Source: Lachnospiraceae bacterium (lineage in GTDB: Bacteria; Bacillota; Clostridia; Lachnospirales; Lachnospiraceae). Taken from it: a stretch of 39,862 bases of DNA. The stretch covers positions 1-39,862 of the forward strand of contig JAEEOO010000008.1 of assembly GCA_016284315.1 (NCBI GenBank), given 5' to 3'. Positions within the stretch are counted from its first letter, which is position 1. Each line of letters opens with the position of its first letter. A program made the position numbers and the translations under genes. Under the pieces are notes generated by a model. That model had not been told where the DNA came from and searched no databases. It was given only the letters and a program-made list of their open reading frames with translations. This document shows, one piece after another, positions 14,538 to 17,673 of the stretch.

Positions 14538-15734
14538 ATGGCAAGAAAAGTTGTTTTGGCTGGTGCTTGTCGTACCGCAATCGGTACAATGGGTGGTTCA
14601 CTTTCCACCATTCCCGCTGCAGAGTTGGGTGCAATCGTAATCAAGGAGGCTCTTAATCGTGCTGGCGTAGCTCCCGAGAAAGTTGATCAGGTTTACATGG
14701 GTTGTGTAATCCAGGCCGGTCAGGGACAGAACGTTGCTCGTCAGGCTTCCATTAAGGCCGGTCTTCCTATCGAAGTTCCTGCCGTAACTATAAACGTTGT
14801 ATGCGGATCAGGTCTTAACTGCGTTAACCAGGCTGCACAGATGATCATGGCAGGCGATGCTGACATCGTTGTTGCAGGTGGTATGGAGAACATGTCAATG
14901 GCTCCCTTCGCACTTCCCCAGGGCCGTTACGGATACAGAATGACATGGCCCAGCCAGAGCCAGGGCGCTCTTGTTGATACCATGGTTAAGGATGCACTTT
15001 GGGATGCATTCAATGACTATCATATGATCACAACTGCTGATAATGTAGCTAAAGAGTGGAATCTCACCAGAGAAGAACTCGATGAGTTCGCATTAAAGTC
15101 ACAGCAGAAGGCATGCGCTGCTATCGAGTCAGGCGCTTTCAAGAAAGAAATCGTTCCCGTAGAGATCAAGAAGAAGAAAGAGACCGTTGTATTCGACACC
15201 GATGAAGGACCTCGTCCGGGTTCAACCATCGAGGGTCTTGCTAAGCTTCGTCCTCTTAATCCCGACGGAGTTGTTACCGCAGGTAACGCATCTGGAATCA
15301 ACGACGGTGCAGCAGCAATTGTTGTTATGAGCGAAGAAAAGGCTAAGGAGCTTGGCGTTAAGCCTATGGCTACTTTCGTAGCAGGCGCTCTTGCAGGTGT
15401 TCGTCCCGAGGTTATGGGTATCGGACCTGTTGCAGCTACCAAGAAGGTTATGGCTAAGGCCGGCATGAAGATCGAAGACTTCGACATCATCGAGGCTAAC
15501 GAGGCATTCGCAGCTCAGTCTGTTGCAGTTGGTAAGGATCTCGGAATCGATGTTGATAAGCAGCTCAACCCCAACGGTGGTGCTATCGCTCTCGGACATC
15601 CCGTAGGAGCATCAGGTGCTCGTATCCTTGTTACCCTTCTTCACGAGATGGAAGCTAAGGGCGCTAAGAACGGACTTGCTACTCTTTGCATCGGTGGCGG
15701 TATGGGATGCGCAACCATCGTAACTCGTGAATAA
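14538..15734 (+). CDS. thl: Acetyl-CoA C-acetyltransferase (thiolase)
   Basis: 398 residues, the usual length for biosynthetic thiolases; GGAGGAA lies just before the ATG. The nucleophile Cys89 is in VVCGSGLNC. The catalytic His lies in the [16 protein letters not shown] motif, and the second Cys is in the C-terminal CIGGGMGCA. It condenses two acetyl-CoA to acetoacetyl-CoA, the first step of the butyrate pathway, in the cytoplasm. It heads an operon whose remaining genes are the later pathway steps. Codon use is strongly biased, as expected for a highly expressed fermentation gene. A structured 154-base element separates it from crt. Confidence 0.97.
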
Positions 15735-15759
15735 TTAATCTGTTAATTATAAGATTACA

Positions 15760-15913
15760 GTGGGAGAGCGCGTGTAATAAATTTCCGGCAATGTGTCCGA
15801 GGCCGGTACTTATTGAGAACAAGCGCTAGCGCTGTTCGAAATTAGTTCCGCTGCCACGAGGACCCATAGCTGGGAAGCGGTGCCGGAAATTTCGTTGCAC
15901 GTGCTAGGCCCAC
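15760..15913 (+). ncRNA. Candidate structured RNA / cis-regulatory element between thl and crt
   Basis: An unusually GC-rich, self-complementary block. Outer helix: GTGGG (15760-15764) with CCCAC (15909-15913). Second helix: 15768-15777 with 15895-15904, ten pairs including two G-U. Third helix: AAATTTCCGGCA (15779-15790) with TGCCGGAAATTT (15881-15892), perfect. Inside lie a small stem CCG/CGG (15797-15806), a hairpin at 15817-15837 with one bulged A, and a stem CCGCT/AGCGG (15848-15880) enclosing CCCA-TAGC-TGGG. This makes a closed multibranched fold. It ends 7 bases before the crt GGAG (15921-15924), as a translational riboswitch or leader would. Alternatives are a processing site or an inserted MITE-like repeat; TTAC flanks both sides (15755-15758 and 15915-15918). 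I recognise no known RNA class. Confidence 0.6.
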
Positions 15914-15932
15914 GTTACTAGGAGAATAAACA

Positions 15933-16763
15933 ATGGAATTTGTTCTTTATGAGCAGAAAGGTAGTATCGCTACCATTACAATCAACCGTGAGAAAGCTTT
16001 AAACGCACTTAATTCACAGGTTCTCGATGAGCTTAACGCTACCTTAGATGGCGTAGATCTCGAGACCGTTAGATGTCTCATCCTTACCGGTGCAGGCGAG
16101 AAGAGCTTCGTTGCAGGCGCTGATATCGGAGAGATGAGCACCCTTACTAAGGCTGAAGGCGAAGCTTTCGGTAAGAAGGGTAACGACGTTTTCAGAAAGC
16201 TTGAGACTTTCCCCATTCCCGTAATTGCAGCCGTTAACGGATTTGCACTCGGCGGAGGATGTGAGATCGCTATGAGCTGCGATATCCGTATCTGCAGCGA
16301 CAACGCTATGTTCGGACAGCCCGAGGTTGGTCTCGGAATCACTCCCGGATTTGGCGGAACTCAGAGACTTGCCCGTCTTGTAGGCGCAGGCATGGCTAAG
16401 CAGCTTATCTACACTGCAAGAAACATCAAGGCTCCCGAAGCTTACCGCATCGGACTTGTTAACGATGTTGTAGCAGCAACTGTAGATGAAGCAGGAAACG
16501 TTACCGTATCCGCAAAGGACAACCTTATCGCAGCAGCTGAGAAGATGGCAACCACCATCGCTCAGAACGCACCCATCGCAGTCCGCAACTGCAAGAAGGC
16601 TATCAACGAAGGCCTTCAGGTAGACATGGACAAGGCCATCGTCATCGAAGAGAAGCTCTTCGGCGACTGCTTCGAGACCGAAGACCAGAAGGCCGGCATG
16701 GGCAACTTCCTTGAGAAGGATAAAGAGAAGAAACTCAAAGTAGTTCCTTTCCAGAATAAGTAA
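15933..16763 (+). CDS. crt: Enoyl-CoA hydratase / crotonase
   Basis: 276 residues, close to family length. GGAG lies 8 bases before the ATG. Crotonase motifs are clear: the oxyanion-hole region FVAGADIGEM near residues 54-63, the first catalytic Glu in GGGCEIAM, and the second in FGQPEVGLGITPGFGGTQRL. It dehydrates 3-hydroxybutyryl-CoA to crotonyl-CoA, step three of butyrate synthesis. A short insertion near residues 178-192 (VVAATVDEAGNVTVS) makes it slightly longer than many relatives. Co-transcription with thl and hbd is likely. Its ribosome binding site is immediately downstream of the structured element, so its translation could be controlled separately from thl. Confidence 0.96.
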   Translation: MEFVLYEQKGSIATITINREKALNALNSQVLDELNATLDGVDLETVRCLILTGAGEKSFVAGADIGEMSTLTKAEGEAFGKKGNDVFRKLETFPIPVIAAVNGFALGGGCEIAMSCDIRICSDNAMFGQPEVGLGITPGFGGTQRLARLVGAGMAKQLIYTARNIKAPEAYRIGLVNDVVAATVDEAGNVTVSAKDNLIAAAEKMATTIAQNAPIAVRNCKKAINEGLQVDMDKAIVIEEKLFGDCFETEDQKAGMGNFLEKDKEKKLKVVPFQNK

Positions 16764-16800
16764 ACTTAAACACACTATATATTTTACGGAGGAATTTATC

Positions 16801-17673
16801 ATGAAAGTAGGCGTTATTGGTGCCGGCACAATGGGCCAGGGAATCGCAAAAGCATTCGCTCTGGTTGATGGCTATCAGGTAGCTCTCTGCGATATCAAGC
16901 AGGAGTGGGCTGAAGGCGGAAAAGACAAGATTGCTAAGGGTTATGCAAAGCTTGTTGAAAAAGGAAAAATGACTCAGGAGAACGTTGATGCTATCCTTGC
17001 AAGGATCACTCCCGGACTTAAGGAAGATCTTTGCGCAGATTGCGACCTCATCGTAGAGGCTGCTTTCGAGGATATGCAGGTTAAGAAGACCACTTTCTCT
17101 GAGCTTGACAAGATCTGTAAGGAAGGATGCGTATTTGCATCAAACACTTCTTCACTTTCTATCACCGAGATCGGCAACGGACTTACCCGTCCTATGATCG
17201 GTATGCACTTCTTCAATCCCGCTGACAGAATGAAGCTTGTTGAGGTTATCGCAGGTGTTAACACTCCTCAGGCTACTGTTGACAGGATCATCGAGATCTC
17301 TAAGGAGATCGGCAAGGAGCCCGTTCAGGTTAACGAGGCAGCAGGATTCGTTGTAAACCGTATCCTCATCCCTATGATCAACGAAGCAGCATTCATCAAG
17401 ATGGAAGGTGTTTCAGATATCGAAGGTATCGACAGCGCTATGAAGCTTGGTGCTAACCATCCCATGGGACCCCTTGAGCTCGGCGATTTCGTAGGACTTG
17501 ATATCTGCCTTGCTATCATGGACGTTCTTTACAAGGAGACCGGCGATTCCAAGTATCGTGCTTGCCCTCTTCTTCGTAAGATGGTTCGCGGCGGCAACCT
17601 TGGATGCAAGAGTGGAAAGGGCTTCTACGTTTACAACGCAGACAGAACCAAGACTCCCGTCGACAAACTTTAA
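16801..17673 (+). CDS. hbd: 3-hydroxybutyryl-CoA dehydrogenase
   Basis: 290 residues with a strong ribosome binding site (CGGAGGAA). The N-terminal Rossmann domain begins GVIGAGTMGQGIA, the NAD(H)-binding GxGxxG. The catalytic His is in GMHFFNP near residue 138, with the downstream Glu in KLVEVI. The C-terminal helical domain (VNRILIPMINEA, GANHPMGPLELGDFVGLD) forms the dimer. It reduces acetoacetyl-CoA to 3-hydroxybutyryl-CoA with a nicotinamide cofactor; which one cannot be read from sequence alone. It lies 37 bases after crt and is followed by an 80-base gap with a GC-rich hairpin before bcd. Confidence 0.96.
   Translation: MKVGVIGAGTMGQGIAKAFALVDGYQVALCDIKQEWAEGGKDKIAKGYAKLVEKGKMTQENVDAILARITPGLKEDLCADCDLIVEAAFEDMQVKKTTFSELDKICKEGCVFASNTSSLSITEIGNGLTRPMIGMHFFNPADRMKLVEVIAGVNTPQATVDRIIEISKEIGKEPVQVNEAAGFVVNRILIPMINEAAFIKMEGVSDIEGIDSAMKLGANHPMGPLELGDFVGLDICLAIMDVLYKETGDSKYRACPLLRKMVRGGNLGCKSGKGFYVYNADRTKTPVDKL

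Follow-up and report, generated by a model that had tools for sequence, protein, structure and literature searches.

Does the strongly folding sequence between thl and crt in a Lachnospiraceae bacterium belong to crt as a regulatory RNA, or is it one copy of a repeat that moves? The DNA analyzed here (the window, 39,862 nucleotides in full) comprises positions 1-39,862 of the forward strand of contig JAEEOO010000008.1, assembly GCA_016284315.1. The thl-crt gap measures 198 nt (15734 to 15933), and the next gap, crt-hbd, measures 37 nt (16763 to 16801). An earlier note had described an RNA-like structured element in the thl-crt gap. It had proposed a riboswitch, an RNA thermometer or a processing site that sets crt-hbd-bcd-etf levels, with a mobile palindromic repeat as the rival.

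The structured element is real. The minimum-energy fold of 15750-15930 was -75.7 kcal/mol, and none of the shuffled sequences was as low (0/200; n=200, mean -51.8, sd 4.2). The z value of -5.7 rules out chance folding as the explanation. Stacked helices of 5, 10 and 12 pairs had been reported; three helices were indeed found in the outer stem P1, with lengths of 5, 12 and 12 pairs in the minimum-energy fold. The pairing joins 15760-15764 with 15909-15913, and 15767-15790 with 15881-15905. The closed domain consists of a long mismatch-bearing hairpin and a GGGA-capped hairpin. The last P1 pair closes at 15913, and GGAG of crt lies at 15921, 7 bases on, in agreement with the earlier note. The features of the locus are as follows.

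14538..15734, + strand: thl (thiolase), the gene upstream of the element; gene call and Pfam thiolase.
15757..15916, + strand: whole element copy, of which the structured strand is the crt mRNA strand; fold z -5.7, 17 model matches in its own genome, limits set from the conserved feet.
15757..15760, + strand: 5' foot ACAG (CAG conserved); in 48/75 copies CAGG or ACAG lies no more than 45 nt upstream of the core, against 14-15/74 in each of three control intervals.
15760..15790, + strand: P1 outer stem, 5' arm (15760-15764, 15767-15790); predicted fold, with copies that vary in sequence and keep the pairing.
15795..15863, + strand: P2 long hairpin with a C.A/U.U position, a U.U mismatch and a tandem G.A step (GA at 15815-15816 and GA at 15838-15839); predicted fold and motif counts in distant copies.
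15869..15878, + strand: P3 hairpin GCU-GGGA-AGC with a GNRA loop; predicted fold, and the loop counts in other copies given below.
15881..15913, + strand: P1 outer stem, 3' arm (15881-15892, 15894-15905, 15909-15913); predicted fold, pairing kept among copies.
15913..15921, + strand: 3' foot CGTTACTAG (consensus CGTNACTNAG), which runs into the beginning of the crt ribosome-binding site; in 49/76 copies GTNACT lies no more than 45 nt downstream of the core.
15933..16763, + strand: crt (enoyl-CoA hydratase), the gene downstream of the element; gene call and Pfam ECH_1.

The element had been matched to no RNA class, and this holds for Rfam release 15. No family reached the gathering score over the whole window, and in 15600-16000 the only two matches with E up to 10 were at chance level. 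Similarly, no family was found over the element copies in 18 of the at least 115 named loci that were fetched. A known Rfam RNA is ruled out by these searches. The Clostridiales-1 RNA (RF01699) lies at L208:2648-2826, near an element copy and without overlap.

Copy number was then measured by DNA search and by covariance models. The DNA search of the window's own genome found copies spread over several contigs, diverged to 68-83% identity. Model R1 was built from 8 copies, and model R2 was built from 51 copies. R1 matched 17 unlinked places in the own genome (2.25 Mb draft, weakest E 5e-7), which is the outcome of a repeat element and supports the mobile palindromic repeat that had been named as the rival. 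Among 59 genomes, R1 matched 30, namely the own genome, 28 of the 30 congeners and G032, which belongs to another genus of the same family. R2 matched 45 of 294 genomes drawn from the order at a completeness of at least 90%, with the own genome (81%) besides or among them. All 45 belong to the window's own family, and they represent 24/144 genera. At most 12 candidates per genome were scored in this order-wide scan, and the per-genome copy numbers, those of the congener scan included, are to be read as "at least".

A hairpin-tip pattern identified at least 115 stretches in named GTDB genomes, and R2 confirmed a match in 80 of the 80 loci listed. Among these 80 titles, 35 read Lachnospiraceae. 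Another 11 read Butyrivibrio, Agathobacter, Marvinbryantia, Lachnoclostridium or [Clostridium] symbiosum, which we take to belong to Lachnospiraceae. Most of the others read only Clostridia, Clostridiales or similar, with 2 Mogibacterium and 1 Crickella, and two odd labels (Selenomonadaceae, Muribaculaceae) may be misbinned. The element gave no blastn match in phage and plasmid collections, and an exact search for the core pattern gave 0 matches in viral contigs. A phage or plasmid origin was rejected on these results.

The crt site in relatives bears directly on the regulatory reading. A regulatory RNA that acts in cis on crt, be it a riboswitch, thermometer or attenuator, would agree with the very stable mRNA-strand fold directly before the crt ribosome-binding site, and with the conserved junction and GNRA loop, as in regulatory RNAs. 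Against it, the same fold occupies 16 other sites in the own genome. Moreover, among 18 congeners with readable thl-crt gaps, 14 lack the element and 4 (G009, G014, G006 and G013) carry the orthologous element inverted, where the mRNA contains the complement; conservation upstream of crt in mRNA orientation was not borne out. No preference of the element strand relative to the genes was found in the distant set of copies either (25 ++ versus 29 --). The regulatory reading is already largely refuted and is highly improbable. The element was probably not selected as a crt regulator, and any effect on crt is probably incidental.

The 14 element-free gaps include 7 of at most 26 nt and 7 of 53-101 nt that hold an unrelated simple stem-loop. 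This stem-loop after thl (L063, L064, L065, L068, L070, L071 and L075) may itself separate thl from crt expression. The inverted state is clear in G014, where 166/182 positions match the reverse complement, with a local score of 140 versus 60 in the same orientation. The flip at thl-crt could have arisen by inversion or by local re-insertion. In G000 the mRNA sense strand folds more stably (-78.7 versus -63.0 for antisense), in G014 the antisense strand does (-87.3 versus -71.8 for sense), and in G009, G006 and G013 the strands lie within 1.9 kcal/mol of each other. At the G013 crt locus (L060), the inverted element has lost its P2 tip, and about 100 nt of a different palindromic sequence stand in its place. 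Three further locus pairs (L030/L117, L105/L122 and L044/L051) were considered as in-place flips; they show opposite orientations at orthologous gaps, but their arms are unrelated, and they look like separate insertions or turnover. At L017/L127, G000 and G014 carry copies at one shared insertion point in front of the same gene, and the two belong to different subfamilies (identity 0.69, with 0.81 for the best other match), which looks like the replacement of one copy by another.

The copies share the architecture of a three-way junction, composed of a copy-specific outer stem, a hairpin with conserved mismatches (U.U and tandem G.A), and a hairpin capped by a GNRA loop. The sequence of P1 differs in nearly every subfamily, and its pairing is retained. 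The P2 tip is near-constant; when P2 motifs were parsed (65/84 and 91/94 copies parsed), U.U was found in 85/91 and tandem GA/GA in 79/91 of the copies parsed from the 94 distant ones. The two-pair step between U.U and GA/GA alternates among GC/GC, AT/AT, AC/GT and GT/AC. The P3 GNRA tetraloop is present in 78/84 and 87/94 copies, with six different GNRA sequences. Extra sequence is inserted in P3 or in the loop of P2 at L020, L163 and L214.

Compensatory change was measured in alignments that were fitted to the structure, which favours pairing counts. In alignment A4 (51 copies), 95.4% of the cells are paired, both sides change in 31/36 pairs (shuffles 24.5), and 494 cells show a double change versus 149 in shuffles. 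In alignment A7 (94 distant copies), the corresponding values are 92.3%, 31/36 (shuffles 26.5) and 1004 versus 327. Slid control versions of both alignments were at most 44% paired. Covariation, for which the earlier note had suggested a test, is strong; it is seen between dispersed copies rather than between crt leaders. G.U pairs exceeded A.C pairs in three counts (58 vs 17, 140 vs 38 and 108 vs 44; alignments A4 and A5 share members). This indicates that one strand folds, the + strand, which at thl-crt is the crt mRNA strand.

Such single-strand selection raises the question of a mobile structured RNA: the copies would be a transcribed RNA, or descend from one, that acts in trans or multiplies through reverse transcription in the manner of a SINE. 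The G.U excess, the GNRA loops of varying sequence, and the tandem G.A and U.U mismatches are typical of one-strand RNA selection. Single-stranded DNA, however, also favours G.T and GNRA-like loops, and the anchored upstream profile showed A+T richness only and no conserved promoter-like block. This RNA reading is considered quite unlikely.

The ends of the element are sharp and asymmetric. In a foot profile aligned on the core, with the six G032 copies left out, GTNACT was found within the 45-nt downstream interval of the genus copies at the frequency listed above, versus 1, 2 and 0 of 75 in control intervals, and it is preceded by C in 49/50. The 5' foot CAG is the weaker of the two. TTAC is present on both flanks, as had been remarked, and had been taken as a sign of a mobile repeat; it is no evidence of target-site duplication because the 3' TTAC is part of the conserved foot CGTNACT. 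The feet of other lineages (L161, L175, L198, L164 and L157) differ, for example GTAGTC..ACGGAC and GTAGCC..GGGCGGCC, and are reminiscent of the REP GTAG tag.

Recent spread is seen in G013, where five sequences are identical over 161 nt with at least 3 different flanks, one of them upstream of tpiA; two flank-sharing pairs in this set may be one locus assembled twice. In L096-L100 of the same genome, what spread recently is the element together with about 80 nt more, ending again in GTCACT. Close neighbours (at most 600 nt apart, picked by eye among the matches listed) were arranged as (-)(+) in 25/27 pairs, on the same strand in 2/27 and as (+)(-) in 0, where some of the 27 are the same pair in related species. 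The head-to-head pairs place CGTNACT at both outer ends as inverted termini.

These inverted termini and the sharp end motif are what a classical MITE would show. In a MITE of this kind, a DNA transposon has lost its interior and a DDE-type transposase cuts at its ends; the head-to-head pair would be the terminal inverted repeats, and the singletons would be decayed halves. Singletons are common, however, and they keep the full fold and two different feet. In addition, the strand asymmetry of the wobble pairs is unexpected for a double-stranded terminal repeat. No transposase gene was found between paired copies; L196, with its copies 3.1 kb apart, was considered as the site of an autonomous relative and rejected, as the pair encloses host-type genes (lyase-like and CCA-adding-enzyme-like, named by eye). 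The MITE reading is regarded as unlikely.

The genomic context was determined from crude ORF calls, with 14/84 and 10/94 copies unplaced. Copies lie between co-directional genes in 59/70 cases of the genus set and 54/84 of the distant set, at convergent sites in 8/70 and 22/84, and at divergent sites in 3/70 and 8/84. Only 1 copy of the genus set and 6 of the distant set lie inside an ORF of at least 100 aa. The genus set leans to the mRNA strand (41 ++ vs 18 --), and these copies are not independent. A RAYT/Y1 partner was rejected, as 15/16 Y1 transposase matches have no element nearby, and Y1 was found in 25/45 element carriers versus 152/249 non-carriers of the same genome draw. Among 620 clustered neighbouring ORFs, examples of the 25 largest clusters were inspected by eye and no mobile gene was recognized. 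Similarly, no transposon was found by eye in the neighbourhoods inspected.

Taken together, 15757-15916 is likely a member of a family of non-coding palindromic repeats that are dispersed and mobile in Lachnospiraceae; the repeat is REP/REPIN-like and unusually large and elaborate. Mobility is indicated by the CGTNACT foot, the head-to-head pairs, the few divergent-promoter sites and the five 161-nt-identical copies in G013. The assignment of 15757-15916 to such a family rests on the following findings: genomes hold several copies that have diverged; one end carries a sharp, asymmetric motif; a relative has recent, identical copies at different loci; copies form head-to-head pairs; and compensatory changes have preserved a three-way-junction fold that is specific to one strand. 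Several results stand against the REP-like reading. No mobilizing enzyme was found by the Y1 comparison and no enriched neighbour gene was recognized by eye; neither a clean empty site nor a target duplication could be resolved among the copies; many copies are old, as they are often kept at orthologous gaps across species; and the genus-set lean to the mRNA strand is unseen in the distant set.

As proposed for REP/REPIN, a trans-acting enzyme would recognize the folded strand, probably when it is exposed as single-stranded DNA at a replication fork. Recognition would fall to the conserved core (P2 tip and GNRA-capped P3), and the variable outer stem would need only to pair. In the thl-crt mRNA, the element would form a stem of about 75 kcal/mol just upstream of the crt ribosome-binding site. 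Like the stems of REPs, it may be a passive barrier or a target for RNase III, and it may slow exonucleases.

Across at least 24 genera, compensated pairs and conserved non-canonical motifs have been retained in the core; therefore, an enzyme or host factor must read the fold. Finding this reader would give a new single-strand recognition system. We tentatively raise the possibility of a family-wide class of mobile elements, in which selection acts on a single strand, RNA or DNA, whose complex fold has a three-way junction, a GNRA loop and a tandem G.A platform, the mover is neither Y1/RAYT nor a neighbour gene, and the element can lie flipped at one locus in sister species. Lachnospiraceae are leading gut butyrate producers, and a folded repeat in their operons (thl-crt, pgk-tpiA) could change how the mRNA is processed and contributes to differences in regulation among species. 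The locus also cautions against taking strong covariation in an operon gap as proof of a riboswitch.

Among known systems, the element resembles Rfam families in the strength of its covariation and differs from them in lying below the gathering score in the window (release 15). ERIC elements have a length within roughly 100-200 nt. The element is likewise roughly 100-200 nt, non-coding, strongly folding, intergenic and transcribed with genes. Bacterial MITEs such as ERIC, RUP, BOX and Correia/NEMIS (PMC10969869) are non-coding, strongly folding, inserted between genes and co-transcribed; PMC2229807 and PMC3049150 are further literature on such elements. In contrast to them, singletons of the element have no classical terminal inverted repeats, no target duplication was resolved, no parental transposon was found in the neighbourhoods inspected by eye, and the core is conserved across many genera with strand-specific compensation.

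The closest likeness is to REP and REPIN (BIME). As described in the relevant sections of PMC3733652, PMC3116915 and PMC8266576, GTAG- and CGTC-tagged REPs are dispersed extragenic palindromes with an asymmetric unpaired foot tag and head-to-head dimers, are sited mostly between unidirectional or convergent genes, and include CGTC families without an associated transposase. The element is also dispersed, extragenic and palindromic, with inverted doublets among the matches listed, mostly unidirectional or convergent sites and, as in the CGTC families, no associated transposase. It differs in unit size, since those sections give REP as a simple stem-loop of 20-40 bp, whereas the element is a three-way junction of about 160-190 nt with GNRA and tandem G.A motifs, a variable outer stem and a conserved tip. 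The REP tag in the same sections is GTAG or CGTC at one foot; the element has an asymmetric foot too, but its CGTNACT is longer and stands on the 3' side of the folding strand, and other lineages have other feet. The host differs as well; the element is found in Lachnospiraceae, and the words Firmicutes and Clostrid are absent from the main text of the PMC3733652 survey. The element is also unlinked to Y1/RAYT. REP membership fails because of the unit size and the missing Y1 transposase association. No description of this repeat was found in the literature searched or in Rfam, which is not proof of absence. It is best described as a palindromic repeat of Lachnospiraceae that is large, built on a three-way junction and marked by conserved RNA-like motifs; it works like REP and is not filed as REP.
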